This document shows, piece by piece, positions 18,539 through 36,800 of a stretch of DNA of 36,800 bases. Where the stretch lies: positions 1 to 36,800 of the forward strand of contig NZ_ASSC01000645.1 in the NCBI RefSeq assembly GCF_000520735.1, written 5' to 3'. The position numbers and the translations under genes are program-made. Origin of the DNA: Paenibacillus forsythiae T98. Lineage in GTDB: Bacteria; Bacillota; Bacilli; Paenibacillales; Paenibacillaceae. Under the pieces are notes generated by a model that saw only the letters and a program-made list of their open reading frames with translations, ran no database searches and had not been told where the DNA came from. How positions within the stretch are numbered: the first letter of the stretch is position 1; every line of letters begins with the position of its first letter.

Positions 18539-20440
18539 ATGACGTTCTTGGAAAAATTACTAACGTATCGGGACAAGGAGAATGATCTCTTCTGGGAAGG
18601 CTCCTTTCTCGATTACCTGCAGCTTGTTAGAGAGAATCCGCGAATCGCCGGGACAGCGCACGAACTGGTCTACCGGATGATCGAGGCGGCAGGTATAACG
18701 GAGCTTGGGGACGGCCGGCGGGAGTACGCTTTTTTCAGCGGAACCCTGTTCGGGCTTGAGGACGCCATTCAGCTGCTCGTGGAAGAATATTTCCGGCCTT
18801 CGGCCCAGCGGCTAGATGTCCGCAAGCGTCTGTTGCTCCTCATGGGTCCGGTCAGCGGCGGTAAATCAACACTTGTCACCCTGCTGAAGAATGGTCTCGA
18901 ATCTTTTACACGTACGCCCGAAGGCGCGCTCTACGCCATTAAAGGCTGCCCGATGCAGGAGGAACCCCTCCATCTTGTCCCCCGCGAGCTGCGCGAGGAA
19001 TTCCGCAAGGAATACGGGGTGCACATCGAAGGCGATCTCTGCCCGGTCTGCCGGATGAGGCTGGAAAATGATTACGGAGGCCGGATTGAGGACATGCCCG
19101 TTGTCAGGGTTCTGTTCTCGGAGAGCGACCGGACAGGAATTGGAACCTTCGCTCCGTCGGACCCCAAATCGCAGGATATCGCCGATCTGACGGGCAGCAT
19201 CGATTTCTCCACCATTACCCGTTACGGTTCCGAATCCGATCCGAGAGCCTACCGTTTTGACGGCGAACTTAACAAGGCCAACCGCGGCCTGATGGAATTT
19301 CAAGAGATTCTGAAATGCGATGAAAAGTTTTTGTGGAATTTGCTTTCATTGACCCAGGAAGGCAATTTTAAAGCGGGACGATTTGCGCTCATCTCCGCCG
19401 ACGAACTGATCATAGCTCATACGAACGAAACCGAATACCGCGCATTTATCTCCAATAAGAAGAATGAAGCCCTCCACTCCCGCATGATTGTCATGCGTAT
19501 ACCCTATAATCTGAAAGCCAGCCAGGAAGAACGGATTTACCGCAAGCTTGTAGACGCCTCGGGCCTGAACAATCAGGTTCATCTTGCTCCCGGAGCGCTC
19601 TTTGCCGCCTCTGTCTTTACGGTGATGTCCCGTCTCAAAGAACCAAGAAAGCCCGGCATTGATCTTGTCAAAAAAATGTACCTCTACGATGGCGTCGAAG
19701 TCGACGGCGTGAAGAAGGGCGATGTGGACGAGCTGCGGCGGGAGCATCCCGACGAGGGCATGTCCGGGGTTGACCCCCGTTATGTCATCAACCGCATTTC
19801 CAGCGCGCTGATCAAAGGCGGGAAGTCCTGCATCAACGCACTGGATGTGCTCCGCTCCCTCAAAGAGGGGCTCGATCAGCACCCTTCGATCTCTAAGGAA
19901 GAACGCGAGCGGCTGATGAATCTGATTACACAGGCCCGCAAGGAATACGACCATAAAGCGAAGACCGAAGTGCAGCGCGCTTTCGTCTACTCGTTCGAGG
20001 AATCGGCCCACACGATGCTCAACAATTATCTCGACAATGTCGAGGCCTACTGCAGCGGACACAAGATCAAGGACCCGATCACCTCCGAGGAGCATGATCC
20101 CGACGAGAAGCTGATGCGCTCCATCGAGGAGCAAATTGGAGTCACCGAGAATCAGAAGCGGGCGTTCCGCGAAGAAATTCTGATCAAAATCTCGTCGTTC
20201 GCCCGGCGCGGCAGACAGTTCGAGTACACCTCGCATGAGCCGCTGAAGGATGCCATTGAGAAAAAACTGTTCGCTGACCTGAAAGACGTCATCAAGATTA
20301 CGACCTCGACGATCAACCCCGACGAGAGCCAGCTCAAGCGCATGAACGAGGTCTCGCGGCGCCTGATCGACCATCACGGCTACTGCGCCACCTGCGCCAA
20401 CGAGCTGATGAAATACGTGGGTAGTTTGCTGAATCGGTGA
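18539..20440 (+). CDS. prkA: PrkA serine protein kinase / AAA+ protease-like protein
   Basis: 633 residues, typical of PrkA/YeaG. P-loop GPVSGGKS is at about 103-110, followed by the conserved Cys motif CPVCRMR and a C-terminal kinase-like region. In Bacillus it is sporulation-linked and needed for late sporulation transcription; homologues have been reported to act as AAA+ proteases or as kinases, so the biochemical role is debated. ATG at 18539 with GGGAGGCGG upstream. It leads the conserved prkA-yhbH-spoVR cluster (yeaG-yeaH-ycgB in enterics); a 208-nt gap with two hairpins precedes yhbH. Confidence 0.95.
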   Translation: MTFLEKLLTYRDKENDLFWEGSFLDYLQLVRENPRIAGTAHELVYRMIEAAGITELGDGRREYAFFSGTLFGLEDAIQLLVEEYFRPSAQRLDVRKRLLLLMGPVSGGKSTLVTLLKNGLESFTRTPEGALYAIKGCPMQEEPLHLVPRELREEFRKEYGVHIEGDLCPVCRMRLENDYGGRIEDMPVVRVLFSESDRTGIGTFAPSDPKSQDIADLTGSIDFSTITRYGSESDPRAYRFDGELNKANRGLMEFQEILKCDEKFLWNLLSLTQEGNFKAGRFALISADELIIAHTNETEYRAFISNKKNEALHSRMIVMRIPYNLKASQEERIYRKLVDASGLNNQVHLAPGALFAASVFTVMSRLKEPRKPGIDLVKKMYLYDGVEVDGVKKGDVDELRREHPDEGMSGVDPRYVINRISSALIKGGKSCINALDVLRSLKEGLDQHPSISKEERERLMNLITQARKEYDHKAKTEVQRAFVYSFEESAHTMLNNYLDNVEAYCSGHKIKDPITSEEHDPDEKLMRSIEEQIGVTENQKRAFREEILIKISSFARRGRQFEYTSHEPLKDAIEKKLFADLKDVIKITTSTINPDESQLKRMNEVSRRLIDHHGYCATCANELMKYVGSLLNR

Positions 20441-20488
20441 CGAGGCAAGTCAGTTTCGGAGCCGTTTCAGATTGCTGAATCGATAATC

Positions 20489-20554
20489 GGGAGGGCAAGT
20501 TTGCCTGGAATCCCTTCCCGTATCCAGCCTGCGGGTGACGGCCGAAATGGCCGT
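20489..20554 (+). other. Two hairpins in the prkA-yhbH gap
   Basis: GGGAGGG (20490s) can pair with CCCTTCCC near 20511-20519, and ACGGCC / GGCCGT (20538-20543 / 20549-20554) forms a tight stem followed by CGCCCCTTTTCCTTTTTT. Together they could be a partial terminator or mRNA stability element between prkA and yhbH. Confidence 0.4.
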
Positions 20555-20648
20555 ACGCCCCTTTTCCTTTTTTCATGTCTGTACGATTGCAAGCCGGAGC
20601 TGCTGCTTTTTCAGGTTAGAAAACCATTTATTCCGGGAGGTGGGCGGC

Positions 20649-21992
20649 ATGGACAAGCGATTGTTCGTGATCGCGCGCGACGACTGGTCGCTGCACCGCA
20701 AGGGAGAAATCGACCAGGAGCGTCACAAGCGCAAAGTAAAGGAAGCGATTCGTGAAAATCTCGCCGACCTAGTCAGCGAAGAGTCGATTATAATGCCCCA
20801 GGGCGATAAAGTGATCAAGGTTCCAATCCGCAGCCTGGACGAGCCGAAGTTCCGCTACAACACCCAGGACAAGCCTCAGGTTGGTCAGGGACAGGGCGGC
20901 ACCCAGGTCGGGGATATCATCGGCAAGGCGGGAGACGGCGAGGCGGCGGGGCCGGGCAAGGGACGCGAAGCGGGCGATCAGCCGGGCGCCGATTATTACG
21001 AGGCGGAGCTGACGATTGACGAGCTTGCCGAGCTTGTGTTCGAGGATTTGAAGCTGCCGAAGCTGAAGCCCAAGGCCGCTCCCGACCTGACCGTCGAAGA
21101 CGTCCGGTTCGAGGACGTCCGCAAGCAGGGCATGATCTCGAACGTCGACAAGAAGCGCACGCTGTTCGAGGCGATCAAGCGCCAGGCGCTGAGCGGCGGA
21201 CTGTCAGGCGCGGCGGCATGGTCGGAATCGGAGAGCGATTACGGCGACGCCGGGGGCGGGACTGCCGGAGAAGTCCCGAGTTCAGGCACGAGTGATCTGG
21301 CCGGAACTGCGGCGCAGCTCGGACTGACCCTTGGACTTCACTCGGCTGGCGGCACTAGCTACATCCCGGATTCAGGCGCCGGGGTTCCCGTCCTTGGCCC
21401 GATTATCGGCGACGATCTGCGGTTCAAGACATGGGAGGATATCCGCAAGCCCCAGTCCTCGGCCGTCGTGCTGGCCATGATGGACACATCCGGATCGATG
21501 GGCAGCTTCGAGAAGTACGTGGCCCGCAGCTTCTTCTTCTGGATGGTCCGCTTCCTGCGGACCAAGTACGAGAATGTGCAGATCCGTTTCCTGTCTCACT
21601 GCACGGAGGCGAAAGAAGTGGACGAGGACTCCTTCTTCCGCAAAGGAGAGAGCGGCGGAACGAAATGCTCCTCGGTATACGAGCTTGCGCATGCCATTCT
21701 GGATGCGGACTATCCTCCGGGCCAGTATAACGCCTACGCCTTTCACTTCTCGGACGGAGATAATCTCGACAGCGACAACCCCGCAACCATGAAGCTGGCG
21801 GGCGATCTGCTGGAGAAGGTCAACATGCTCGGCTATGGTGAAATCCGCCAGCATATCTACGGCAGCAAGCGGCTATGGGAGTCGCTCGCGGGTCTGAACT
21901 CCCCTGCCTTTGTTCAGGCGATTCTGAAGGAAAAGGAAGATGTGTTCAAGACGTTGAAGGCGTTCTTCGGCGATGAGGTGGCGGCAAGCTAA
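20649..21992 (+). CDS. yhbH: YhbH, DUF444 sporulation protein
   Basis: 447 residues of the DUF444/YeaH family. The C-terminal half is a von Willebrand A-like domain with the MIDAS-type DTSGSMGS near residue 279; the central part is acidic and repetitive, with a Gly/Ser-rich linker. YhbH/YeaH are partners of PrkA and SpoVR. A longer frame reaches back to 20535, but GGGAGG stands just upstream of the ATG at 20649, which begins MDKRLFVIARDDWSLHRKG, the expected family start. spoVR follows after 39 nt. Confidence 0.93.
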   Translation: MDKRLFVIARDDWSLHRKGEIDQERHKRKVKEAIRENLADLVSEESIIMPQGDKVIKVPIRSLDEPKFRYNTQDKPQVGQGQGGTQVGDIIGKAGDGEAAGPGKGREAGDQPGADYYEAELTIDELAELVFEDLKLPKLKPKAAPDLTVEDVRFEDVRKQGMISNVDKKRTLFEAIKRQALSGGLSGAAAWSESESDYGDAGGGTAGEVPSSGTSDLAGTAAQLGLTLGLHSAGGTSYIPDSGAGVPVLGPIIGDDLRFKTWEDIRKPQSSAVVLAMMDTSGSMGSFEKYVARSFFFWMVRFLRTKYENVQIRFLSHCTEAKEVDEDSFFRKGESGGTKCSSVYELAHAILDADYPPGQYNAYAFHFSDGDNLDSDNPATMKLAGDLLEKVNMLGYGEIRQHIYGSKRLWESLAGLNSPAFVQAILKEKEDVFKTLKAFFGDEVAAS

Positions 21993-22031
21993 AGGCATCG
22001 AAATCTATAACGTCAGGAGGAGACGGCGCTT

Positions 22032-23276
22032 ATGATCGATCAAGAAGCGGAACAATTGGAGCAGGCGGCGGGGCGCCTGACGGAGCTTGCGCTGGAGCAC
22101 GGGCTCGACTTCTTCCCGATGCGCTATCAGGTATGCCCGGCCGAGGTGCTGTATTCCATCGGAGCTTACGGCATGCCGACCCGGTTCGCGCATTGGAGCT
22201 TCGGCAAGGCGTATCAGCGGATGAAGACGGAATACGACCATGGCCTGAGCAAAATTTACGAGCTGGTGATTAACTCCGATCCCTGCTATGCGTTTCTGCT
22301 GGACAGCAATACGCTGCTTCAGAACAAGCTGATTGTGGCGCATGTGCTCGGGCACAGCGATTTCTTCAAGAATAACGCCATGTTCGCGGGTACAGACCGG
22401 CAGATGGTCGAACGCATGGCCGTATTCGCCGACCGCATCGAGCGGTTCAGCCATGAATACGGCTCGGACGAAGTCGAGAACTTTCTGGACGCAGGCATCG
22501 CCATTCAGGAGCACGTTGATCCATTCGTGCGGTTCGGCAGGTCCGAGGGCTTCCGCGAGGCGGACGGGGGAGTGAAGGATGTGATCGGCTATATCGCGGG
22601 GCACAGCCGGTATCTGGAGGAATGGCAGCGGGAAATCCTGTATATGCTCCGCGCCGAAATGCTCTATTTCTGGCCGCAAATGGAGACGAAGATTATGAAT
22701 GAGGGCTGGGCCAGCTACTGGCATTTGAAGCTTGTCCGCGAGCTTGACCTCAGCGATTCGGAAATTGTCGAGTTTGCCAAAATGAACGCAGGCGTCATCC
22801 AGCCTTCCCCGGGACGGATCAATCCGTACTATCTGGGTCTCATGATGCTGCGGCATATTGAGAAGAAGGAGGGGCTTAAAGCGCTGTTCGAAATCCGGGA
22901 GACCGAATCGGACGTATCGTTCATCCGCAACTATTTGACAAAAGAGCTGGCGGAAGAGATGGATCTGTTCGTCTTCAAGCAAGAAGAGAAGGTATACAAG
23001 GTGACGGCCAAAGACGTTGCCGAAATCAAGGATAACCTGATCCGTTCGCGGACCAACGGCGGGTTCCCCTACTTGACGGTCAAGGACGACGACCTGCACG
23101 GCCGGGGCGAGCTGCTGCTTAACAACCGCTATGAAGGACTGGAGCTCGACCGGAAATACGTTGAACGCACCCTTCCGCTCGTTCACCGGCTGTGGGGCCG
23201 GAGCGTGCATTTGCGGACGATCGTGGACGGGCGGGAGAAGACGTACATGTACGACGGCAAGCAGTTGGCAGGATAA
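22032..23276 (+). CDS. spoVR: SpoVR family protein
   Basis: 414 residues; SpoVR proteins contribute to spore cortex formation in Bacillus, with no proven enzymatic activity. The typical conserved stretches are seen: FFPMRYQVCP, FPTRFAHWSFGKAYQ-like (here MPTRFAHWSFGKAYQRMKT), NEGWASYWH and NPYYLGLMMLRHIE. AGGAGGAG lies 8 nt before the ATG. It ends the prkA-yhbH-spoVR operon and is followed by a strong terminator. Confidence 0.94.
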   Translation: MIDQEAEQLEQAAGRLTELALEHGLDFFPMRYQVCPAEVLYSIGAYGMPTRFAHWSFGKAYQRMKTEYDHGLSKIYELVINSDPCYAFLLDSNTLLQNKLIVAHVLGHSDFFKNNAMFAGTDRQMVERMAVFADRIERFSHEYGSDEVENFLDAGIAIQEHVDPFVRFGRSEGFREADGGVKDVIGYIAGHSRYLEEWQREILYMLRAEMLYFWPQMETKIMNEGWASYWHLKLVRELDLSDSEIVEFAKMNAGVIQPSPGRINPYYLGLMMLRHIEKKEGLKALFEIRETESDVSFIRNYLTKELAEEMDLFVFKQEEKVYKVTAKDVAEIKDNLIRSRTNGGFPYLTVKDDDLHGRGELLLNNRYEGLELDRKYVERTLPLVHRLWGRSVHLRTIVDGREKTYMYDGKQLAG

Positions 23277-26384: not shown

Positions 26385-27407
26385 TTACTGGACATTTACT
26401 TTATCGGGAAAAGCTTCCTTCAATCCTTCCAGCGCCAGCTTGTCGTCAAGCTTGAAATCCTGCTCGATATAGCCGTTCGCAATGCTCCATTCCTTGATCT
26501 CCTTCAACTGGTCATAATCCTCCTGATTGAAACGAACATCAAACTCCCATTCATTCTTGATTTCCTGCAGAGCGTTATCCTTTGGAATCTTCAACTCTTT
26601 GAACGCCAGTTCGGCGGCCTCCTCCGGATGATCGGCAATATACCGGGACGCTTCGTCCAGCGCCTTGTTCAGCCCCTCCGAAATTTGAGGCTTATCCTTA
26701 ATCAGAGAATCTTTAGCGACCAAGAATCCCTTCGTCCGGATGTTAATCGCGGATAAATCATTAAGCGCTTTGGAGCCCTCCACCTTCTCCGCCTTGTCGA
26801 AGAACGCGGTGCCGAACCAGGCGGCCTGGATATCGCCTCTGTCGTAAGCGGCCAGAATCTCCGCCGTGGATTGCAGCGGGACGAGAGAAACCGCCTTCGG
26901 GTCGATATGGAACGTCTCAAAATACTTGCCCCAAATGTATTCGTTCACCGTTCCCTTTTGCACGCCCAGCTTCTTGCCGATCAGGTCCTCCGGCTTGCTT
27001 ACTCCGTCTCTGGCGTACAGCTTCGAGCTGGTCGCTTTCGGCGAGGAGAACAGGGACAGCACCTTCAGGTCCCCCTTGGAAAGCGCGCTCAGCGCCGCAT
27101 AATCCATCGCTTCCCCGACGTCCACCCGGTCGGTCAGCACCGCATTTAATGTGTCAATACCAAAGGAGAATGTCGATATTTCGGCATCAATTCCGTTTTT
27201 CTCAAAGAATCCCTGCTCCTTGGCTACCCGAAATTGCAGCGAGAATATGGCCGAGTCTCCCCCGATGCGCACTTTCTCCAGCTTGGCGCCATCCGCCGCC
27301 TCGGGCTTCGCCTTGGCGTCTCCGCAGCCTGACAATGAAATCACGATTCCCATTAACAGAACTGCCGCAGCGACTGCTTTCCATACTTTGCTTAACTTCT
27401 TGTTCAC
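26385..27407 (-). CDS. ABC transporter substrate-binding lipoprotein (SsuA/TauA/NMT1-like)
   Basis: 340 residues. GTG start at 27407, behind GGGGGACAAG. A lipoprotein signal ends in LSGC with the lipid-modified Cys at about residue 28. The mature domain has the NMT1/THI5-like periplasmic-binding fold: FSLQFRVAKEQGFFEKNGID, the ligand-loop region KKLGVQKGTVNEYIWGKYF, and WFGTAFFDKAEKVEG. This family binds sulfonates, nitrate, thiamine precursors or similar compounds; the ligand is not decidable here. It is third in the ATPase-permease-SBP-radical SAM operon, 31 nt after the permease. Confidence 0.9.
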   Translation of the reverse strand: MNKKLSKVWKAVAAAVLLMGIVISLSGCGDAKAKPEAADGAKLEKVRIGGDSAIFSLQFRVAKEQGFFEKNGIDAEISTFSFGIDTLNAVLTDRVDVGEAMDYAALSALSKGDLKVLSLFSSPKATSSKLYARDGVSKPEDLIGKKLGVQKGTVNEYIWGKYFETFHIDPKAVSLVPLQSTAEILAAYDRGDIQAAWFGTAFFDKAEKVEGSKALNDLSAINIRTKGFLVAKDSLIKDKPQISEGLNKALDEASRYIADHPEEAAELAFKELKIPKDNALQEIKNEWEFDVRFNQEDYDQLKEIKEWSIANGYIEQDFKLDDKLALEGLKEAFPDKVNVQ

Positions 27408-27438: not shown

Positions 27439-28215
27439 TTACTTTCCAAACCTTGTTTCTTTGGCAATTCCGTAACGCCCCAGCGTGGTCTTGCCCATCC
27501 AGCGCAGCAGCTGATCCCCGGCAAAGCCCATCAATCCCAGCAGCAGAAGGCCGACGAAGATCCAATCCGTCTTGGAGTAGAGCCTGGAGGTCCAGATCAG
27601 GTAGCCGACTCCTTCGTTGGCGGCAATCATCTCCGCTCCCACAATAGCCATGAACGAATTCCCCATAGCCAGTCGGACCCCGTTGAAAAAGGCGGGGACG
27701 ACAGCCGGAATAATGACATGGATCAGTATCTGCCGCTCCGAGGCTCCCAGCGACCTTGCCGACCGGATTTTGTCATCCTCGACATTGACCACACCGGCCG
27801 CCGTGTTCAGAATGACGATGAACAGCGTTGCATACATAATCAGAATGACCTTCGACGGCTCCCCGATTCCAAACCACAGAATAAACAGGGTAATAAAGGC
27901 CAGCGCCGGAATGAACCGGAAGAAGTTCAGGTAAGGCTCAACCAGCTCCCGCAGCCATTTGAACCGGCCGATCAGGAGGCCCGCCGGAATGCCCAGCAGA
28001 CTGCCCAGCAGCCACCCGAGCACCACCCGCTTAAAGCTGATAAGGACATAGGAGATCAGAGAGTTGTCCGTTAACAGCTCAACCGCACCTTTCAAGGTCT
28101 GGATGGGAGTGGGGAAATAGTCCGGATTCGAGTTCATCGCAACCAGCTGCCACACAATCAGGAACAGCAGCCAGGAAACCAGCCCCGCCTTCAAGCCTTT
28201 CCTAACAAAACGCAT
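27439..28215 (-). CDS. ABC transporter permease (SsuC/TauC-like)
   Basis: 258 residues with about six hydrophobic spans and the cytoplasmic coupling motif in the region RSARSLGASERQILIHVIIP (EAA loop). It should form the membrane channel of a nitrate/sulfonate/taurine-type importer with the neighbouring ATPase and lipoprotein. GAAAGGAGG before the ATG is strong. Starts 24 nt after the ATPase gene. Confidence 0.92.
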   Translation of the reverse strand: MRFVRKGLKAGLVSWLLFLIVWQLVAMNSNPDYFPTPIQTLKGAVELLTDNSLISYVLISFKRVVLGWLLGSLLGIPAGLLIGRFKWLRELVEPYLNFFRFIPALAFITLFILWFGIGEPSKVILIMYATLFIVILNTAAGVVNVEDDKIRSARSLGASERQILIHVIIPAVVPAFFNGVRLAMGNSFMAIVGAEMIAANEGVGYLIWTSRLYSKTDWIFVGLLLLGLMGFAGDQLLRWMGKTTLGRYGIAKETRFGK

Positions 28216-28239
28216 CGCGCTTGCCTCCTTTCAAAAAGC

Positions 28240-29088
28240 CTATAAATGAAAATACAGATCGTCCTGGAAGATGCTCTGCAGCTTTTTCTGCATCAGATTG
28301 AATTCCCGCGAGGTTAAATCACGGGGATATTCGAGGCGGTTGTCTATGATTTCAAATACGCGCGAGTCCGGACCAATGGACATAATACCGATGCGGCCGC
28401 CGAGCAGCACCGCCTCCTGGATATCATGCGTGACGAAAATGACCGTCTTCTTGGTCTCCGTCCATATCCGCACCAGTTCGTCCTGCATCACCCTGCGGGT
28501 GAACGCGTCGAGCGCCCCGAGAGGCTCATCCATCAGCAAAAGCTCCGGATCGTTCGCCAGCACTCTCGCGATCTGGACCCGCTGCTTCATCCCGCCCGAT
28601 AGCTCCCGGGGAAACTTGCGCTCATGTCCCGTAAGTCCCGCCAGCTCGATATACCGGTCGGAGACGGCCTTGCGTTCCCCGCGGCTCACTCCCTGCATAC
28701 GTAGGCCGAATTCGATGTTCTCCCGCACATTCAGCCAAGGGAACAGGGAGGCATCCGGATGCTGAAAGACCATAGCCCGTTCTTTGCCAGGCCGGTCAAT
28801 GGGCTTCCCGTCCACGAGCAGCTCGCCTTCGGTCTGCTTCTCAAAGCCGGCGATCAGGTTAAGCAAGGTTGACTTGCCGCAGCCGCTGGGACCCAGAAGG
28901 ATAAAGAACTCCCCCCTCTTGATGTTCAAATCGACATCTTTCAGCACCTGGTAGCGAACGGCCCCCTTGCCGCTGCCAGATACAAAAGACTTGCCGAGCT
29001 GCTTGATCGAAATAATCGACTGCGAGGCATTCTCTTCTGTGGAAGCGTCGGTTATCGCGTCCGTGGAGATCAATGGATAGCGGGACAT
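28240..29088 (-). CDS. ABC transporter ATP-binding protein (SsuB/TauB-like)
   Basis: 282 residues. Walker A GPSGCGKST (about 66-74), Q-loop FQHPDASLFPW, signature LSGGMKQR, Walker B LLLMDEPLGALD and switch VTHDIQEA are all present. It powers the adjacent permease. TTG at 29109 and ATG at 29094 lie too near AGAGGAG; the ATG at 29088 has 8 nt and is chosen. The N-terminal 20 residues before the ABC domain are a non-conserved extension. First gene of the operon; its leader contains a terminator-like hairpin, so expression may be attenuated. Confidence 0.93.
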   Translation of the reverse strand: MSRYPLISTDAITDASTEENASQSIISIKQLGKSFVSGSGKGAVRYQVLKDVDLNIKRGEFFILLGPSGCGKSTLLNLIAGFEKQTEGELLVDGKPIDRPGKERAMVFQHPDASLFPWLNVRENIEFGLRMQGVSRGERKAVSDRYIELAGLTGHERKFPRELSGGMKQRVQIARVLANDPELLLMDEPLGALDAFTRRVMQDELVRIWTETKKTVIFVTHDIQEAVLLGGRIGIMSIGPDSRVFEIIDNRLEYPRDLTSREFNLMQKKLQSIFQDDLYFHL

Positions 29089-29147
29089 TTGCATTGCTCC
29101 TCTCGTCAAAATGAAGATAAAGCCGCGAAGCAGACCTTATGTTAGAC

Positions 29148-29192
29148 ACAAAAGGCCGTTTCTTTCTCCCGGAAGGAAGAAAAATACGGCCT
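29148..29192 (-). terminator. Leader terminator/attenuator hairpin before the ABC operon
   Basis: On the minus strand AGGCCGT / ACGGCCT joins TTTCTTCC / GGGAGAAA into one long stem of about 18 pairs (few mismatches) with a UUCC loop, followed by TTTTGTGT. It sits between the promoter at 29252-29280 and the ATPase start at 29088, so transcription must pass it. Confidence 0.7.
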
Positions 29193-29251
29193 GCGGCTGT
29201 CCGCTCGACTTTATTTAAGGATACAGGAATAATTCCGAGTTACATGATAGG

Positions 29252-29280
29252 ATTATATTGTTTTGGTTTTACGGCGTCAA
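29252..29280 (-). promoter_or_regulatory. Near-consensus sigma-A promoter of the ABC-radical SAM operon
   Basis: On the minus strand TTGACG, exactly 17 nt, then a perfect TATAAT. Transcription would begin near 29245, leaving a leader of about 157 nt. Confidence 0.8.
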
Positions 29281-29521
29281 TATTCTGGTTTGTAAATCCC
29301 GAATATTTCTCTAAAATTGTTACAATTCTGTGTTCGGGCCGACGTCACGAAACCGGCAGGAGCTATCGTCATGCATGCACTCATTCGAAGGGATGAATAT
29401 AAGGTGAACTATTGAGGTATGTACACTGGTTTGACTTAGGGCTTAAACTAAACCTAAAACTATCAATTTCAGGAAACGAGAGAATAGCGGAGCAACCCCC
29501 AAAAAAGAGGTGAACGAAGCA

Positions 29522-30328
29522 TTGACCGACAGCAAACGATTGTCCGTTGTGATTATCACGCAGAACGAGGAAGAGAAGATCGAACAAGCGATTCTCTCCT
29601 GCCGCCCCTTTGCGGACGATATCGTCGTCGTCGATGGAGGCAGCACCGACGGAACGGTTCTCATTGCGGAGCGGCTCGGCTGCAGCGTCTACCACAATCC
29701 CTGGCCGGGGTACGCCAAGCAGCGCATATTCGGGGCCGATCAGGCGCCCAGCAACTGGATCTTTGTCATCGACTCGGATGAGGAAGTAAGCGAAGAGCTT
29801 CAGAAATCGCTGCTGGCCTGGAAAAAGGAGCCTGAGAATGAGGTGAAGGCCTATACGGTCTACCGGATCGGCGATTTTCTTGGCAGATGGATGCCTAAAG
29901 GGGAGCATCTCGTAAGATTGTACAAAAAAGACGAAGTTCGGATGAAGGACGTCCTCGTGCACGAAGGCCCGGATGTCGATCCGTCCGCTGTTCCTTGTCT
30001 GAGTGGCACACTCTGGCATCACGGCTACCGCAGCATTCAGGACCATGTGCAGCGGTTCAACAAGTACACGGATCTTGAAGCCCGGAAGGATTATGACCGG
30101 GGAAAAGCCTTCAGCCTGCTGAGACTTCTGCTTAGGCCGCCCGCCAAGCTGATCTACACCTTGTTCGTCCGCCGGATGATTACGAAAGGAATTGCCGGTT
30201 TCAGCGTCGCCTTTTTCTGGATGTATTATGAGTTCCTCAAGGAAATCAAGCTGTATGAGCTTCATGCCCGGGACAAGAAACGGGAGAAACCGGTCTATGC
30301 CATCGAAAGCGAGAAACACCCAGTTTAA
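29522..30328 (+). CDS. Family 2 glycosyltransferase (WaaE/KdtX-like)
   Basis: 268 residues. GT-A fold: LSVVIITQNEE, then VVVDGGSTDGT and the DSDEE metal-binding motif; a C-terminal region with hydrophobic GFSVAFFWMYYEFLKEI suggests membrane association. Related to small inverting enzymes that add sugars to lipid or cell-wall polymers. GTG at 29510 lacks a ribosome site; GAGGTG is at 9 nt before the TTG at 29522, so that is the start. The next glycosyltransferase follows after 16 nt, so the two work on the same glycan. Confidence 0.88.
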   Translation: MTDSKRLSVVIITQNEEEKIEQAILSCRPFADDIVVVDGGSTDGTVLIAERLGCSVYHNPWPGYAKQRIFGADQAPSNWIFVIDSDEEVSEELQKSLLAWKKEPENEVKAYTVYRIGDFLGRWMPKGEHLVRLYKKDEVRMKDVLVHEGPDVDPSAVPCLSGTLWHHGYRSIQDHVQRFNKYTDLEARKDYDRGKAFSLLRLLLRPPAKLIYTLFVRRMITKGIAGFSVAFFWMYYEFLKEIKLYELHARDKKREKPVYAIESEKHPV

Positions 30329-30344
30329 AGGAGGGGTGACTTCC

Positions 30345-31430
30345 GTGCGTATTCTTCATATCGCCAATCATGTGAAGGAAACGGGTAATGGAATCGTCAA
30401 CGTTATGGTCGACCTGGCTTGCGAGCAGGCTGCAAGAAATCATCAGGTGGGCATCATATCGGCAGGAGGACAGTATGAAGAGCTTATTGCCAGGTACAAC
30501 ATCCGGCATTACAATCTGGACCAGACAAGAAAGCCCGCTCAGCTGATGCGGGCTGTTTTTGATTTCAGACGGATTGTGGCGGACTTCTCACCCGATATCA
30601 TTCATGCGCATATGATGACCGGCGCGCTGCTGGCCCGCTATTTGAAAGGCTTCCGTAAATATAAGATCGTGACCCATGTTCACAACGAGTTCCAAAAAAG
30701 CGCCGACTTCATGCGGGTGGGCGACCGGGTGATTGCCGTCAGCCAAGCCGTCTCAAGCGCCATGGCAGGCCGGGGTGTCCGGCAAGACAAGCTTCGCGTC
30801 ATTCTGAACGGCACCATCGGAAGCCCGCGCAATTCCGGGTCCGGGCCTGTCCCCCTGCAAGGGCGGGCCATTGTCACGGTTGCCGGCATGTACGAACGCA
30901 AAGGGATCTCCGATCTCATCGACGCCTTCGACCTTCTTGCGGGCGACCATCCGCAGGCAAGGCTCTATATCGTAGGCGACGGGCCGGACCGGGCCAGGTT
31001 CGAGGAGCGGGCGGCCGCCTCGCCTTTTGCCGGCAGAATTACGTTCGCAGGCTTCCAGGCCGAGAGCCGCCGGTGGATGAAAGCCGCAGAGGTGTTCGTC
31101 CTGGCCTCCCATAAGGAGCCGTTTGGGCTTGTCCTGATTGAAGCCCGGGAATCAGGCTGCGCCATTGTCGCTACCGATGTAGACGGCATTCCTGAAGCGC
31201 TGGATCATGGAGAAGCGGGAATCCTCGTCCCGCCGGGGGACGTCAGGGCGCTCTCCACAGCCATCGGGGAGCTCCTCGCCAATGAAGCCAAGCGCCAGCA
31301 TTACCGCGCCCGGGCCGGGACAGGACTGGACTATTACCGCGTGGGACGCGTGGCGGAAGAAATACTCCGGGTTTACGATGAGCTGCTGGGGGAAGCATCC
31401 GTGCTCGCAGGGGCTGCGGATAACAAGTAG
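30345..31430 (+). CDS. Family 4 glycosyltransferase
   Basis: 361 residues with the GT-B layout: N-terminal domain with MRILHIANHVKETGNG, then a C-terminal Rossmann domain with VTVAGMYERKGISDLI, YIVGDGPDR and the ESGCAIVATD/GIPEALDHGEAG nucleotide-sugar site (EX7E region FGLVLIEARESG). Start GTG at 30345, with AAAGGAGG 10 nt upstream. It is the second gene of a two-gene unit with the family 2 enzyme; polymer or glycolipid synthesis is likely, with the product unknown. No terminator or third gene is visible downstream; a decayed gene on the other strand follows. Confidence 0.9.
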   Translation: MRILHIANHVKETGNGIVNVMVDLACEQAARNHQVGIISAGGQYEELIARYNIRHYNLDQTRKPAQLMRAVFDFRRIVADFSPDIIHAHMMTGALLARYLKGFRKYKIVTHVHNEFQKSADFMRVGDRVIAVSQAVSSAMAGRGVRQDKLRVILNGTIGSPRNSGSGPVPLQGRAIVTVAGMYERKGISDLIDAFDLLAGDHPQARLYIVGDGPDRARFEERAAASPFAGRITFAGFQAESRRWMKAAEVFVLASHKEPFGLVLIEARESGCAIVATDVDGIPEALDHGEAGILVPPGDVRALSTAIGELLANEAKRQHYRARAGTGLDYYRVGRVAEEILRVYDELLGEASVLAGAADNK

Positions 31431-31470
31431 AGTTTGGCGTCTCACTCCGCACTATGCTTCACACCGCCCT

Positions 31471-32450
31471 TTAAGTCAACAGGTTGACCATGAAATATTT
31501 GCGCGGTGAAGCGGTGCTCCAATCAAAACCGTCAAAGGCATCAACCCTAACTGCACACTGATGATTCTCCAGAAGCGCTCCCGCATGAACTATCCACTGC
31601 TTCTGACCAGACGCTTGCTCCCGGACTGAACGACGATATTGTCGGTCGTCGCATCCAGTATGCGTACCCAGTATCGCGCTGCTACTCATCGCCGTCGTTG
31701 GAATAGCTCCATTTCATAATCGGCGTCATTGTACTGATGATGGTCGGCGTGGATGCCGTGTCACTCGTTGGAAAGATGCGTCCCACCACAGGCAGACATT
31801 TTTTTACGATGAACGCACGTGAGAACTCTCTCCTTAGCCCAAATGAATCGGTCACCACCTGACGGATCGTAAATGTGTCGTTGGTCGTGAATTGTTTGGC
31901 AAAGTGATCCGACGCGCTAATCAAGCTCTCCGTATCTCCGCTGGGTTTCAGGTAATATTGATAGACCAGAGTGTCCCCCTTCGGCAGATCATCGTTGTAT
32001 GCCGTCCTGGTAACTTGCAAGACATCGGTACGGTATATAGGCGTCTTGGTGGATATCTATTACTAAAGAGAAGCCCTGAACCGGAGGGTTATCCAAGATG
32101 AACGCCTTTTCGTTAGAAATCTCAGACCAGTTATTCTTCTTCGAAAAGGTCCGGTTCTGTACGGAATAGTGCAGGAATCGTTCCAGAGACTGGTTCGGCA
32201 TCTGCAACTGTCTTGTATATTGCCCGTATTGCCCGTATTCTCCACACCTTTGGCAAGCAGACCATCCTTCATGAAAACCTCCAGCCGGTACTTCTCCTGC
32301 GTATCATTCTCCGGATCGTCGTAGGTCCACTTGATGAACGGATCTCCCTCTTGCTGCGCGTCGATAATGGAAGGATCTTCCCTTGTACCAACCAGGGTGG
32401 CTTGGGCCATGCATTAGGGTCGATCTTCCAGCATCCAATATAGAATCAAT
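31471..32450 (-). pseudogene. Decayed repeat-type extracellular protein, at least four frameshifts
   Basis: The minus strand reads in pieces. Segments include DPFIKWTYDDPENDTQEKYR, NPPVQGFSLVIDIHQDA, QVTRTAYNDDLPKGDTLVYQ then YYLKPSGDTE, PIMKWSYSNDGD joined to QRYWVRILDATTDNIVVQSG, and VRVDAFDGFDWSTASPRKYF, stop at 31471. The W-Y-D-D-Q-Y...SG...VRV...DG..WS pattern is that of tandem Ig/Fn3-like domains of large Paenibacillus surface proteins. The N-terminus is absent (in-frame stop near 32415 and AT-rich sequence beyond). I would not reconstruct a function. Confidence 0.82.
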
Positions 32451-32699
32451 TAATATAAATGTTACAAATTATTAAATATTGTTACATTAAATGAAATAAA
32501 ATAATATAAATCTATGTACATCCATCAAAAAAACCGTAATGTATATATATGGTTATTATATAAATTAACAACCATATTCTCTAAAAAAGGGGAGATTCTA
32601 ATTTGATCCAAGTATAGCGACAAAAGAAAAAAATATTCTACGACAAGGAAGCGACTTTAATTGACCTAACTTTATCACTATTTAATGGGAGATGTTTCT
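32451..32699. other. AT-rich intergenic region before the amidase-like gene
   Basis: About 250 bases. TGTTACA occurs twice on the plus strand, 13 nt apart, near 32460-32490, a possible regulator site. A ribosome-site-like GGGGAGA (near 32590) precedes a 4-codon frame (TTG ATC CAA GTA TAG), probably a relic. The site GGGAGAT of the next gene is at 32687. Confidence 0.45.
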
Positions 32700-33815
32700 G
32701 TGCAAAACCGGAAAAAACCGCTCTTTGGTGTTATTTGTTCTTTACTCATTTTTTCTGCTCCAGCATATGCCTCCGAAAAGATTCCTGATTCAAAAAAGGC
32801 TGAAAACCCTTATGTTACGCAATACTTTTTTGAAAAATTTGCTCATCCAAATAAGACAGACTTAGTTGATCCTGTAGTTGAAGATCAGATAGCTATCGAC
32901 GCTCTTACGTCCTACTACAATGCCGATGTAAAAGTAGCAGGTATTCTAGCTTTATATGACAAGGACGCTAATCTGTTAAAAAAAGCAACCTCCTTAAATA
33001 AAGAGGATAAGATTCAAGTGATGCATATAATTAAGAAAGTGTATCCATCAGTTACCGATCTAGAAAACCAACAGGCCCTGAAAGGATTTCTAAAAAGATA
33101 TGCTCAGAATATTAATGAAAAAGAGTCAGTAAATTTCTTGAAAGAAATCAACCCTAAAGAAAATCAAAATATTTCCATTAATGAAGTAAATAAAGCAGAG
33201 GGTGCAAATATAAGAGAAATTAAGTCCAAAGAAGTCTCAGAAGAAACTTTTAGCATCGCTTCTTCATATAATGGAACTGCCGCTGCTGATTGGGCGTATA
33301 ATCACTATAATACTTATGATTCAGCTTTCCCTGCATTTAATGCTGGATATGGAAGTGATTGTACTAACTTTGTCTCACAGGCTTTGTGGCACGGCGGCAA
33401 GACAATGGCAGATAACTGGTATTCATACAAGAAAAACTCTACATACTTATCACCAGCTAGCGCAGCAGAGTTGGATTATAGTTGGACCTTGGCCGATCCT
33501 AGTCCTTGGATTAGCAAGGATGAATTCAATGACTATTGGAGACCTAAATCCACTGTCCATGGTTATAGTAAAGATTACTATGTATCGAATCATACTAGTA
33601 TTTATAATTTGTCGATTTATAAAGGTGACGTCCTTGTGTTCCATAATGGTACTGCTGGTTTTGTTACTTGGCCAACACATGTTATGATTATCTCTGGTTA
33701 CGATTCAACAAATAAAGATTTTCTTCTTGCTGGCCATTCGAATAACCGCCAAGCATATCCTTTATTGACTGCCATTAGTAATTATGCTTATATCGAGTTT
33801 TTTGAAATACCTTAA
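32700..33815 (+). CDS. Secreted putative amidase-domain protein (Amidase_6-like)
   Basis: 371 residues. GTG at 32700 is preferred over ATG 32685 because GGGAGA lies 8 nt upstream of it. Signal peptide to AYA at about residue 24. The C-terminal half has the Amidase_6 (PF12671-type) pattern AAADWAYNHYN, C221 in GYGSDCTNFVSQAL, H327 in WPTHVMIISG and GHSNNRQAYPL, consistent with a Cys-His papain-like hydrolase acting on cell-wall or peptide amide bonds. The N-terminal 190 residues are helical and unfamiliar. AT-rich compared with the glycosyltransferases. The small downstream gene follows after 16 nt. Confidence 0.88.
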   Translation: MQNRKKPLFGVICSLLIFSAPAYASEKIPDSKKAENPYVTQYFFEKFAHPNKTDLVDPVVEDQIAIDALTSYYNADVKVAGILALYDKDANLLKKATSLNKEDKIQVMHIIKKVYPSVTDLENQQALKGFLKRYAQNINEKESVNFLKEINPKENQNISINEVNKAEGANIREIKSKEVSEETFSIASSYNGTAAADWAYNHYNTYDSAFPAFNAGYGSDCTNFVSQALWHGGKTMADNWYSYKKNSTYLSPASAAELDYSWTLADPSPWISKDEFNDYWRPKSTVHGYSKDYYVSNHTSIYNLSIYKGDVLVFHNGTAGFVTWPTHVMIISGYDSTNKDFLLAGHSNNRQAYPLLTAISNYAYIEFFEIP

Positions 33816-33831
33816 TGTTAGAGGTGAAATG

Positions 33832-34125
33832 ATGAAGAGTACTATAAATAGAAAGAAATATCTAATATTATTTTTAATACTCTTCGCTGTTCTTCAGTTT
33901 TCTACTGCCGTACAGAAAGGGGAGGCTATTCTTACCTCAAGGCTTTACTCAACTTTAAAGTATCATGATAGTCATCTTCAATATGATCGGATAGAATATG
34001 ATTCTCATTTTGGTGAGTACTTAGTCTCTTATCACGATAAAAACGGAAAAGTTGTTAGTTTTATGATTACACCGAAATTTCTACCTTTTTTTATATCTTA
34101 CGATCCGCTTGATACATCCAAATAA
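33832..34125 (+). CDS. Small membrane or secreted protein (possibly DUF3139-like)
   Basis: 97 residues. An N-terminal hydrophobic helix (YLILFLILFAVLQFSTA) is a signal anchor or uncleaved signal; the rest is a short polar domain with YDRIEYDSHFGEYLVSYHDK and FFISYDPLDTSK. The short size, helix and FxVxYD-type ending recall DUF3139 proteins, but I am not certain. GAGGTGA precedes the ATG at 33832, 16 nt after the amidase stop, so it is probably co-transcribed with it. A hairpin follows at 34138. Confidence 0.7.
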   Translation: MKSTINRKKYLILFLILFAVLQFSTAVQKGEAILTSRLYSTLKYHDSHLQYDRIEYDSHFGEYLVSYHDKNGKVVSFMITPKFLPFFISYDPLDTSK

Positions 34126-34137
34126 ACTACAGAACGA

Positions 34138-34164
34138 AGAGGCTGTCCCTTTCGGGCAGCCTCT
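34138..34164. terminator. Hairpin after the amidase pair
   Basis: AGAGGCTG(T)CCC / GGG(C)AGCCTCT with a TTTC loop, 13 nt past the stop. T content after it is low, so termination efficiency is uncertain; the minus strand likewise lacks a clear T-run. Confidence 0.65.
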
Positions 34165-34215
34165 CTTCCGGGAATATCCTGATGAATAAGAGTAACATCT
34201 CCGGCAGCGGAGGAC

Positions 34216-34542
34216 TCAGGCAGTAGCAAGCTTCTCCTGCGCATGCTTAAGCGAGATGTAATCGGTACTGAACGCAATCCCGCGCTCCTTAAGCTCCTCG
34301 CCGACCCCCATGCCGATCCGGCTGACCAGCACGGTGCTGCAATCGGATAAAAGGCCGATGATTTTGTTCAACTGCTCTTGGCTGTGTCTGCCCGTAAAGC
34401 CGTCGCTTCCGGTCTTGCGGACCTCCGCCAGAGTCCATTCTCCCTCTGCGGATACATCATAAATCATAAACTGCTCGCAGCTGCCGAAATGCTGGTCAAT
34501 CCATTGCCCGTCGCTGCTGCCTATCGCAACCCTGCTTGCCAT
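34216..34542 (-). CDS. NifX/NifB-C-like dinitrogenase iron-molybdenum cofactor-binding protein
   Basis: 108 residues of the Nitro_FeMo-Co domain (PF02579-type): VAIGSSDGQWIDQHFGSCEQF with the conserved cofactor-binding H-F-G, then the central MIYDVSAEG-EW and GIAFSTDYISLKHA. Such proteins bind FeMo-cofactor precursors or Mo/Fe-S clusters; many small copies occur outside nif operons. Two start ATGs lie six bases apart behind GGAGGAGGG; the inner one (34542) has better spacing, ATG at 34548 is the alternative. It is on the same strand as the nitrogenase-associated gene downstream in coordinates, but a terminator separates them. Confidence 0.85.
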   Translation of the reverse strand: MASRVAIGSSDGQWIDQHFGSCEQFMIYDVSAEGEWTLAEVRKTGSDGFTGRHSQEQLNKIIGLLSDCSTVLVSRIGMGVGEELKERGIAFSTDYISLKHAQEKLATA

Positions 34543-34704
34543 TTGCATCCCTCCTCCTACTGTAAGTGCCTGAATATTAACAACACTATACAGCCTGCCT
34601 GATAGAATACCAAGGCTGTTCAATGAACATTTGGAAACGGCGGGAGCTAAGCTAACATTTGAACAGGGCGGCGCGCCCCGACAATTGGCAAAATCGGCGG
34701 AAGA

Positions 34705-34733
34705 TCAAAAAGAGCGCCCCGTCAAGGCACTCT
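34705..34733 (-). terminator. Rho-independent terminator after the nitrogenase-associated gene
   Basis: On the minus strand AGAGTGCC / GGCGCTCT pairs over 8 bp (one G-U) with a 7-nt loop, followed by TTTTTG. Lies about 20 nt after the stop. Confidence 0.82.
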
Positions 34734-34753
34734 CTCATGTCTTCATTCCTTGT

Positions 34754-35176
34754 TTACGACCCGGAGGACGCGCAGGCGCCGCCCTGATCCTCTTTATGAC
34801 ATCCCGTATTGTAGCCGGAGGGAACTTCGCACAGGCCAATTTCCTTCAGATATTCCGCATCGAAGCCCGCAAGCACCTGACCGCCGATATTCATGAGCGG
34901 CCGCTTGATCAGGATAGGATTGCTGCATAGCAGATCCAGCGTGTCCTCCCGGGACAGGGCCCCAGGAATCATCTGGCCTGATTTGACCGCAGGAGCATTC
35001 GGATTAAACCACTCTTTCAGCTCCAGGCTGGCAAGATAAGGCTCCAGCGTCTCGGGCGTCCATTCCGCGCTCAGCAGCGACCGTTCCTCCAGCGTATGGC
35101 CGTAGCTTTCCAGCAGCGCCTTTTGGCGGACAGCTCCCATACAACCGGGTTTGGTATAGAAAATGATATGCGCCAT
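34754..35176 (-). CDS. Nitrogenase-associated protein of the ArsC/Spx thioredoxin-like family
   Basis: 140 residues. Thioredoxin-like start MAHIIFYTKPGCMGAVRQKA with one active-site Cys, then ESYGHTLEERSLL and the ILIKRPLMNIGGQVLAGFD segment of the ArsC/Spx family; the Cys-rich tail CHKEDQGGACASSGS is typical of the nitrogenase-associated branch, whose role is unproven. ATG at 35176 (GGGGG upstream) is preferred to the extension starting at 35212. Together with the NifX-like gene it hints at a diazotrophic lineage. Confidence 0.86.
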   Translation of the reverse strand: MAHIIFYTKPGCMGAVRQKALLESYGHTLEERSLLSAEWTPETLEPYLASLELKEWFNPNAPAVKSGQMIPGALSREDTLDLLCSNPILIKRPLMNIGGQVLAGFDAEYLKEIGLCEVPSGYNTGCHKEDQGGACASSGS

Positions 35177-35268
35177 GCAAGTACCCCCTAAAGATAGATT
35201 TATTAAATCCATAATAAGGCAGCACTCTTAACCTGGCAATGAATCTCACAATCTAGACAATAATTGTT

Positions 35269-36654
35269 CTAAATAAGGCGGTGCTGGTACCATTTTTTGC
35301 CGAGGAACCGTTTGAGGAAAATCCCGCCCCGCACGGCCCATTCACAGTCCATCGCCAGCCAGACGCCGAGAATGCCCAAATCGAGAACAATGCTCAAAAT
35401 ATAGCCAAGCACGACGCGGAACAGCCACATGGACAGCATGGACACGACCGAGGTAAACTTGGAGTCGCCCGCCGCCCGAAGCCCCGAGGGGAGAATAAAG
35501 CTGATAGCCCACAGCGGAATTTGAACAAGCGTATTGATAAGCACAATCAGGAAAATATCGTCCACAATTTCAGCAGGGGGATGAAACAGCGATACGAGCG
35601 GCCTGAATAACGGCAAAATCAGCAAGCCCATGAGCGCAAAGGACAGCGACGACGCCACAATAAACGATTTGATGAATTTTCTCGCATCTTTAACATCACC
35701 CCGCCCCATGCATTGACCGACCACCGTAATAATGGTCAGAGCCAGCGCGTTCGCGGGAATTTGCATCACCCCGGCAAAAGCGGCGCCGATCGCATTGGTC
35801 GCTATCGCATAGGTGCCCAGGCTCACGATAAAGATTTGGGTCAGGATTTTGCCCCCGTTAAAGAACATTTGCTCCGCCGCAAACGGCAGGCCGATGAACA
35901 TAATTTTCTTGAGCATGGACAAATTGAAGGACAGAATGTCGCGAAGCTTGATTTGCAGGCTGCTATCCAGCCGGAACAAATAGTACAGGGCGCACAGCGC
36001 CGCCAAATACCGGGCTATATTGATCGATATGCTCATGCCGAGAACGCCCATGTTCAGCAGGTTAATGAATACAAGATTCAAGAGAACGTACACCAGATTC
36101 ATAATCAGCGACAGAACGAGCGAAGCCCGCGTACTGCCGATTCCCCGAAGGGCCCCGCACACCGCCTCCACAACCGCAATGCCCAGGAAGGAGATGCTGC
36201 TTCCGATCAAATAGGTTCTGCCGTTAGCCATAACATCCGGCGCCGCCGCCCCGAACAGGAGGTTAAGCAGAGGACCGTGCAACAGCACTCCGAATAACCC
36301 GACGCCAAGCGCCAGTAAAGAAACGGAGGATACAGCGCCCGCCGTCGCCTTGGAGACCATCGCATGGTTGCCGCTTCCCTTGTATTGGGCAACTACAACC
36401 GTTCCGCCCGTCGACACGGCGATAAACACGCTGATTAAGAAAATGTTAATGGAGTCGATCATATTCACGGCGCTAATCGCCGCCACTCCCGCTGAACTGA
36501 TCATGGCCGTGTTCAAGAGATTAAGCCCCACCACAAAAGCCTGGTCGATCAGAATCGGAATAAACAGCGCGATCATCTGGCGGTAGTCCATGGACTGTCC
36601 GGAGAAATATTTTTCAAGGAACCCTCTATTCATGCTCGCATTAGGCTGGATCAT
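35269..36654 (-). CDS. MATE-family multidrug/Na+ efflux transporter
   Basis: 461 residues with about twelve hydrophobic spans, the MATE layout: IPILIDQAFVVGLNLLNTAM at the first helices, and the mid-protein repeat FIGLPFAAEQMFFNGGKILT with the second half. It exports organic cations or drugs coupled to Na+ or H+; substrate unknown. AAGGTGAGG is at proper distance from the ATG at 36654. A terminator for the upstream tRNA stands before it on the same strand. A single gene on context. Confidence 0.93.
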   Translation of the reverse strand: MIQPNASMNRGFLEKYFSGQSMDYRQMIALFIPILIDQAFVVGLNLLNTAMISSAGVAAISAVNMIDSINIFLISVFIAVSTGGTVVVAQYKGSGNHAMVSKATAGAVSSVSLLALGVGLFGVLLHGPLLNLLFGAAAPDVMANGRTYLIGSSISFLGIAVVEAVCGALRGIGSTRASLVLSLIMNLVYVLLNLVFINLLNMGVLGMSISINIARYLAALCALYYLFRLDSSLQIKLRDILSFNLSMLKKIMFIGLPFAAEQMFFNGGKILTQIFIVSLGTYAIATNAIGAAFAGVMQIPANALALTIITVVGQCMGRGDVKDARKFIKSFIVASSLSFALMGLLILPLFRPLVSLFHPPAEIVDDIFLIVLINTLVQIPLWAISFILPSGLRAAGDSKFTSVVSMLSMWLFRVVLGYILSIVLDLGILGVWLAMDCEWAVRGGIFLKRFLGKKWYQHRLI

Positions 36655-36686
36655 ATATCCTCACCTTTCTACCTTAAATTGGTCCC

Positions 36687-36721
36687 AAAAAAAAGAAAAA
36701 CGCTCTTCATATTTGAAGAGC
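36687..36721 (-). terminator. Rho-independent terminator after the tRNA
   Basis: On the minus strand GCTCTTCA / TGAAGAGC with a 4-5-nt loop, then TTTTTCTTTTTTTT. Ends transcription of the tRNA before the MATE gene. Confidence 0.88.
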
Positions 36722-36764
36722 TGCTAAATGGCTTGGCCTGCATTATCATTTATTTATCTGAGTA

Positions 36765-36800
<36 letters not shown>

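Follow-up and report, generated by a model that had tools for sequence, protein, structure and literature searches.

Regulation of sulfur metabolism in Gram-positive bacteria, as described so far, involves CymR, LysR-type regulators, S-boxes and T-boxes. T-boxes contain an invariant UGGNACC sequence; ANTAR-controlled attenuators consist of two hexaloop hairpins; and the RAT elements recognized by BglG, SacY and LicT are short hairpins with an asymmetric internal loop and a 3' strand that runs over the foot of a terminator, being off by default and read by an RNA-binding factor. In clostridia, the cysteine T-box attenuates cysK and cystine-transport genes, as described in PMC2940859, and in Bacillota, LoaP mediates protein-dependent antitermination through dfn, a leader hairpin of the UNCG type that lies upstream of, and separate from, an intrinsic terminator (PMC12691694). 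The accessible portions of PMC11109978, PMC2940859, PMC12691694, PMC5670726, PMC3828012 and PMC11487621 describe no element of the kind analyzed here, and no report of this element, or of a function for the YezD protein discussed below, was found in the open-licence literature.

We examined the leader of an ABC transporter/radical SAM operon in a 36,800-nucleotide stretch of the Paenibacillus forsythiae T98 genome (hereinafter, the window); this leader is apparently one copy of a small, uncatalogued RNA on/off switch of Gram-positive sulfur operons. The operon is located on the minus strand and encodes an ABC ATPase of the NitT/TauT type (first gene, 28240..29088), an ABC permease (27439..28215), an SsuA/NMT1-like substrate-binding protein (26385..27407, with the GTG start at 27407 picked by eye) and a variant radical SAM protein that matches NF045502 (25164..26372). 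Judging from the leader element, the predicted function of this operon is probably sulfur acquisition. Close copies are present in P. rhizophilus (L016) and other Paenibacillus genomes: the radical SAM protein has a match at E<=1e-60 in 10 of 100 genomes sampled from the genus, and in 8 of these 10, including that of the window, the operon adjoins a divergent glycosyltransferase, with the copy in G034 being truncated. In this truncated operon (L036), the leader is retained, the permease runs near the C-terminal part of the radical SAM protein, and no match to the binding protein was detected.

The leader spans the region from the promoter (29280-29252, minus strand) to the start codon of the first gene at 29088 (ATG 29088-29086, or 29094). 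The TTGACG-17-TATAAT promoter that the earlier note placed some 160 nt before the first gene holds up well: it scores 11 out of 12, the highest of the 19 promoter-like sites in 28000-36800 (compared with a mean of 10.2 such sites in shuffled sequences), both the -35 TTGACG (29275..29280) and the -10 TATAAT (29252..29257) are the same in 8 of the 8 aligned genomes, and the distance from the inferred +1 near 29245, a sequence prediction, to the start codon is about 157 nt. Alignment of the leaders of homologous operons, the check that had been proposed, was performed for the 8 Paenibacillus genomes in which the operon lies beside the divergent glycosyltransferase, and the leader is conserved in all of them: the constant parts are the promoter, a CCTATCA.G.AA...GG block around the inferred start, the GAGCGGA...CCGCAGGCC run and a terminator, with a linker that varies in length and sequence. 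The start-site block (29231..29251, minus strand), in which CCTATCA.G.AA.T.GG is invariant among 10 copies, is a candidate CymR-like DNA operator; by eye, it is similar to the CymR site of Bacillus subtilis cysK given in PMC11487621. Farther upstream, at approximately -71 to -88 (29316..29333, minus strand), the element ACACAGAATTGTAACAAT is found with small changes in 7 of the 8 aligned operon copies, and is weaker in G032.

The strong terminator-like hairpin previously noted between the promoter and the first gene is borne out by folding and conservation, on which its identification is based, given that a simple terminator scan of the window did not list it. This predicted intrinsic terminator (29153..29192, minus strand) comprises 7 and 10 bp around one mismatch, has a folding energy of -24.4 kcal/mol on its own, and is followed by the U-rich tail UUUUGUG (29147..29153); the leader as a whole (29245-29090) folds at -51.9 kcal/mol (z -3.80, with none of 200 shuffles as good). 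The core hairpin of the element (29189..29209, minus strand), delineated by alignment covariation and folding, consists of P1 (29209-29207/29191-29189), an internal loop with GA (29206-29205) opposite A (29192), and P2 (29204-29201/29196-29193) closed by the loop ACAG (29200-29197). In the window, all three P1 pairs form, namely the first two (U-G and C-G) and the third, 29209/29189 (G-C); across the element copies, the core comprises P1 of about 3 bp or more, the 5'-GA/3'-A internal loop, P2 of 4 bp and a mostly 4-nt loop. The 3' strand of P1 (GGC..) is also the foot of the terminator (29191-29189), so that P1 and the terminator compete. Of the two smaller stems that had been suggested to precede the terminator, GCGG/CCGC, that is, P2, is real and conserved, whereas GGAAT/ATTCC was rejected: it is present in the genome of the window but the linker that contains ATTCC differs in the other aligned genomes.

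Comparison with the known systems reveals similarity in design to the RAT elements, namely a short hairpin with an asymmetric internal loop that overlaps the 5' foot of a terminator; unlike RATs, which belong to sugar operons and PRD-containing proteins, the element has a different sequence and its candidate partner is a DUF2292 protein. By analogy, the element may work in the manner of a RAT-type antiterminator, with no claim of membership in that family. The element would share transcription attenuation of sulfur genes in Bacillota with the SAM-I riboswitch (S-box, RF00162) but the SAM-I aptamer model has 108 positions, and RF00162 shows no match in the window at the gathering score or in the leader at E<=10 in the same kind of search that finds the S-boxes in L017 (see below). 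With the cysteine T-box, it would share the attenuation of cysK, and GUGGNACCGC slightly resembles GCGGANNACCGC; nevertheless, neither the window nor any of 20 other loci has an Rfam T-box match, and P2 of the element covaries away from UGGNACC. Unlike dfn, the element overlaps the terminator, and UNCG occurs in none of the 59 distinct loops; unlike the ANTAR-controlled attenuators, it has a single hairpin before the terminator, with a loop of 4 or 5 nt in the 59 distinct copies. More generally, no Rfam 15 family matches the window, or the element in the 20 other loci, at the gathering score, in line with the earlier view that the leader belongs to no known class, such as the S-box or T-box: the leader alone at E<=10 yields only PK-BYV, mir-1954 and DnaX, far below the gathering score and all on the plus strand, and in the 20 other loci, the matches are limited to tRNAs (L176) and a THF riboswitch (L195), all off the element. 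Two further candidates were considered. A CsrA site (GGA) was rejected because most of the type-2 copies read GGU, and for a leader peptide, no conserved short frame was seen by eye in the type-1 leaders of Paenibacillus.

The covariance analysis that had also been proposed supports the core hairpin, P2 in particular. For 37 copies chosen by us and aligned without structure (alignment A2; L087, L089, L092, L094 and L125 were dropped by eye beforehand, and not all weaker matches to the whole-leader model R1, described below, were inspected), the pairs tested were those of P2 and two pairs of P1. The fraction of paired cells is 97.7%, compared with 86.0% in shuffles, there are 23 double-change cells compared with 5.5, and the covariation score is 0.410 compared with 0.188; on each of these three measures, none of 500 shuffles was as high, whereas the number of further pair types was not above that in shuffles (199 of 500 as high). 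The model used to fit a larger alignment of 97 matches, with 94 distinct rows (A3), already includes P2, and the P2 counts of A3 are therefore partly by construction, a flaw of which A2 is free. In A3, pairing reaches 99.5% for P2, three of whose four pairs show 60, 35 and 14 double changes, and 97.9% for P1, with only 6 double-change cells. Further pair types in A3 again did not exceed shuffles (428 of 500 as high); as many pairs with a double change were also seen in 55 of 500 shuffles, which is no clear excess. The support for P1 is modest: 3.63 contiguous pairs on average compared with 3.28 when the partners were swapped, with 1 of 1000 swaps as high. In the 59 distinct copies, the motif can be written as Y-GA-[4 bp]-loop-[4 bp]-A-G, with GA present in 55 and A29 in 58; the P2 loop has 4 nt in 54 copies, all of them (A/U)NMR, and 5 nt in the other 5, and P2 itself varies between GCGG/CCGC, CUGG/CCAG, UUGG/CCAA and CCAG/CUGG.

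The element recurs well beyond this operon. A search of 100 genus genomes for GAGCGGANNNCCGCAGGC yielded 26 matches, distributed over 19 genomes, compared with 0 for the reversed control; on reading, 11 of the 26 are of the leader type, and the other 15 appear to be coding or unrelated sequence. Among 394 genomes of the family, TATAATNCTATCANGNAANNNGG matched 10, of which 9 are known carriers and the tenth is G150 (reversed control, 1 match). The G150 match to TATAATGCTATCAAGAAAGGAGG (G150:C47:294890-294912, L100) comes from another genus of the family. At E<=0.1, R1, a covariance model of ten whole leaders, had matches in 25 of the 100 genus genomes, plain terminators among them. R2, a covariance model built from the A2 hairpin plus the terminator, matched 181 of 388 sampled family genomes (E<=0.01); in a sample of 299 genomes from across Bacillota, it matched 17 (E<=0.001), including 13 that do not belong to the family. 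As a rough guide from E-values, about 4 of 388 and 0.3 of 299 genomes, respectively, would be expected by chance. Because R2 was trained only on Paenibacillus, its failure to match elsewhere means little. A strict pattern applied to 199 Bacillota genomes gave 5 matches compared with 1 for the reversed pattern, which is weak on its own.

Copies of the element precede many sulfur-uptake and assimilation operons, SsuABC-like ones among them, along with genes that have no obvious role in sulfur metabolism. Among the 29 first-gene proteins scanned, from chosen loci that include 6 from Paenibacillaceae (L162, L163, L168, L169, L172 and L175), 9 are plainly or probably sulfur-related: ATP sulfurylase (L187, L206, L214), PAPS reductase (L202), PLP enzymes of the cysteine synthase type (L162, by eye; L186, by NCBIfam), MetK (L188) and sulfate-type binding proteins (L180, by NCBIfam; L182, by likeness). 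Another 8 are plausible, namely permeases (L172, L178), FMN reductases (L169, L200), nitrogenase-like proteins (L189, L198), a protein with a FeMo-cofactor domain (L183) and an FAD protein (L204), and 12 have no clear role in sulfur metabolism (L163, L168, L175, L176, L184, L185, L192, L193, L195, L205, L211, L213). A further sat gene is found at L207. Some of these element matches are weak, in particular, those of the cysH copy L202 (E 0.064) and the sat copies L206 (E 0.0025) and L207 (E 0.12), and the copies in these three loci were found only beside DUF2292; in the predicted fold of L207, the 3' strand of P2 also pairs with downstream sequence.

In Paenibacillaceae, the contexts include a NifX-like gene (identified by eye) with an O-acetylhomoserine sulfhydrylase gene and a nitrogenase component 1 gene, or with a NifH-like gene; a MarR gene with genes for an arylsulfotransferase and an NMT1-type binding protein; several NitT/TauT-type transporters; and a cysteine synthase-like gene. 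Family matches back metK, NifH-like, arylsulfotransferase, MarR, OpuAC, NMT1, permease and nitrogenase component 1 assignments as well as that of the O-acetylhomoserine sulfhydrylase, in this last case for a partial protein and below the cut-off; the arylsulfotransferase gave nothing in the NCBIfam scan at E<=1e-20. Operons for methylthio-alkane reductase (Mar) and other nitrogenase-like sulfur-salvage systems are likely targets, represented here by NifX-like, NifH-like and nitrogenase component 1-like genes with O-acetylhomoserine sulfhydrylase or metK, their identity as Mar being putative. In Proteobacteria, Mar is controlled by a protein activator, in contrast to the RNA element found here. 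In L115-L120, metK and nitrogenase component 1 genes, with a variant radical SAM paralogue nearby, lie under the same leader. In L086, L091 and L124, an OpuAC binding protein is followed by genes that, by eye, resemble DUF427, urocanate hydratase and DUF917, and through which ergothioneine or thiourocanate might be exploited for their sulfur.

Two loci, L017 from Clostridium luticellarii and L020 from a member of Lachnospiraceae, had been selected solely for encoding relatives of the radical SAM protein of the window, and in both, the element is found upstream of the gene for this relative. In the search with R2 with filters off, these were 2 of the 7 protein-fetched loci outside Paenibacillus, with scores of E 1.3e-5 for L020 and E 1.8e-5 for L017, where a second copy is weak (E 0.022); L018, L019, L021, L022 and L023 gave nothing below E 8. 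In L017, a SAM-I riboswitch with its terminator precedes each copy, which puts this homologous operon also under sulfur control by a known RNA. At L017:470-718 and 6993-7238, the arrangement of a SAM-I riboswitch followed by the element thus occurs twice before radical SAM genes, that is, two attenuators in series.

At L020, a gene for a 50-aa DUF2292 protein (YezD family) ends right before the element, and this protein family, which is also present in B. subtilis, co-occurs with the element at large. DUF2292 is encoded in 14 of 17 element-positive but only in 31 of 281 element-negative Bacillota genomes (Fisher p 2.2e-10, n=298, the element survey having covered 299 genomes), and outside the home family in 11 of 13 compared with the same 31 of 281 (p 9e-9); these Fisher tests, like the binomial test below, treat genomes or matches as independent, which they are not. 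Seven genomes counted as element-negative (G418, G429, G489, G496, G555, G584 and G697) have a same-strand match downstream of DUF2292 in the single-locus search at E<=0.5, that in G555 at 1.3 kb and that in G697 at only E 0.12. For adjacency, one locus was taken from each of 30 of the 45 DUF2292-positive genomes, 3 of the 30 being from Paenibacillaceae. Among the 22 element matches obtained (R2, filters off, E<=0.5), 14, from 14 of the 30 loci, are on the same strand and no more than about 250 nt downstream of DUF2292, with E-values from 5e-8 to 0.12 (binomial p 1e-14, with matches treated as independent), 3 more, at two loci, lie 1.0-1.3 kb downstream, and 5 are on the opposite strand. Within Paenibacillaceae, DUF2292 is near-universal (51 of the 55 genomes searched, with or without a detected element), so that co-occurrence inside the family is uninformative, and none of the 25 Paenibacillaceae DUF2292 loci has the element nearby. 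A permease gene (BPD_transp_1; cysW-like by eye) precedes yezD in L254, with the same layout by eye in L239, L233 and L235, and a SAM-I riboswitch lies upstream of yezD in L202 and L205 among the 20 loci scanned.

The suggestion of a riboswitch or a protein-controlled attenuator, made from the sequence of the window alone, is thus supported by the conserved leader, the covariation of P2, the recurrence of the element and the lack of Rfam 15 matches at the gathering score in the window and the 20 other loci. We consider it somewhat probable that the leader is a sulfur-status transcription attenuator that is off by default and is read by a trans-acting factor, with YezD as the leading candidate. 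The leader is conserved, P2 covaries, the hairpin overlaps the terminator, and the element recurs before operons many of which are sulfur-related; sulfur shortage would be the ON state, and the factor would be a protein, most likely YezD (DUF2292). Under this scheme, RNA polymerase would start at TTGACG/TATAAT and by default stop some 100 nt farther, at the terminator; the 21-nt hairpin (P1, the GA/A internal loop and P2) would act as an antiterminator on the same GGC strand that forms the foot of the terminator; and the trans-acting factor, by holding the hairpin, would prevent the terminator from closing, so that the genes are read. An RNA element common to ATP sulfurylase, cysK, metK, sulfate/sulfonate transport and nitrogenase-like operons would constitute a missing layer of control and would give DUF2292, a family without a function, a testable one. 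The broader proposition, that YezD is a sequence-specific RNA-binding antiterminator which, together with the 21-nt hairpin, defines a global post-initiation sulfur-limitation regulon across Bacillota, atop SAM-I and CymR, and covering sulfate assimilation, organosulfur scavenging and nitrogenase-like salvage, is put forward tentatively, as close to an even call. Should the factor indeed be YezD, we would have an antiterminator of very small size that is also a convenient tool.

The sulfur genes behind the element, the attenuator layout and the C. luticellarii copies that follow SAM-I riboswitches would also fit a riboswitch in which no protein is involved and a sulfur metabolite, such as O-acetylserine, cysteine or sulfide, is bound directly by the hairpin, YezD being just another member of sulfur operons, in or beside which it is found anyway; YezD could be such a bystander. 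Furthermore, DUF2292 was not found in several genomes that have the element, namely the window's own draft assembly (91.9% complete, 895 contigs), G028 (99% complete, 710 contigs), G492 (97% complete, with a strong element match) and G659 (85% complete); the case of G028, given its completeness, slightly lowers the odds for YezD. Nonetheless, the conserved part spans only about 21 nt, its loop being variable and mostly of 4 nt, which is small for an aptamer, and the co-occurrence and adjacency with one small protein speak against the metabolite, so that we regard the riboswitch as unlikely and the evidence on the effector leans to a protein, YezD.

In the window, the state with the full terminator has a predicted energy of -31.3 kcal/mol compared with -23.0 kcal/mol when P1 is forced, so that the switch should be off unless P1-P2 is held, and the antiterminator, with a deficit of about 8 kcal/mol relative to the terminator in this copy, needs a bound factor or kinetics. 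The opposite, TRAP-like polarity, with YezD or another factor on the hairpin favouring termination when sulfur is plentiful, is compatible with the minimum-energy fold of the window, in which P2 and the terminator coexist, and the direction is not fixed by sequence alone; the terminator is, however, strong unaided, and P1 would open its foot, which makes factor-aided termination distinctly unlikely.

In nearly all cases, the element has a gene to read: a same-strand downstream frame, defined by a mechanical rule (at least 55 aa, start within 420 nt), is found for 57 of 60 element rows, the exceptions being L055, L138 and L228. This, together with the free variation of the linker, argues against a stand-alone small RNA that would act in trans, with the operon served by occasional read-through or another promoter. 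Such an RNA would account for L055 and L069, which have convergent genes on either side and no gene to read, and a promoter of their own is conceivable for the NifX-type genes: a TGTGA-N6-TCACA (Fnr/Crp-like) site is present within 150 nt after the element, between the terminator and the gene, in 13 of the 14 type-2 leaders checked (L080-L084, L093, L096-L099, L111, L113 and L114), being absent from L138, which suggests a second control or a second promoter in these NifX-like leaders. On balance, we find the small RNA quite improbable. L055 and L069 (in G089 and G034, respectively) are complete promoter-element-terminator units flanked by a TerC gene and, in convergent orientation, a gene for an RlmN-like radical SAM protein (a family match in the case of L055); ACACGATTGTAACAT is found upstream of both orphan copies.

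Coupling to translation, in which ribosomes ending an upstream frame (yezD in Clostridia) would mask or free P1, is highly improbable: it would agree with the yezD stop codon lying from 4 nt past to 17 nt before P1 in 8 of 13 adjacent loci, but the stop is 99-133 nt off in 4 of the 13, by eye no conserved frame precedes the element in the type-1 leaders of Paenibacillus, and in the 25 Paenibacillaceae loci examined, yezD is not located next to the element.

Attenuation by a trans-acting factor, as favoured above, may be combined with separate control of initiation. In particular, 4 of the 10 arylsulfotransferase (MarR) leaders checked (L147, L152, L153 and L155) carry, instead of the CymR-like block, AACGTT-N9-AACGTT between the promoter and the element, an inverted repeat that is perhaps a MarR operator. 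Initiation may thus be set by promoter-specific repressors, with the hairpin as a common second gate.

As for YezD itself, a single-sequence AlphaFold2 model of one family member predicts a helix-strand-strand fold (pLDDT 74.7, pTM 0.35), and a Foldseek search with this model gave nothing at E<=1; both results are uninformative. In some Bacillota (L229, L230 and L231), two DUF2292 domains are found in one open frame. Elsewhere in the window, the sporulation genes for PrkA, YhbH and SpoVR are arranged in a row on the plus strand (18539-23276), convergent with the ABC/radical SAM operon.
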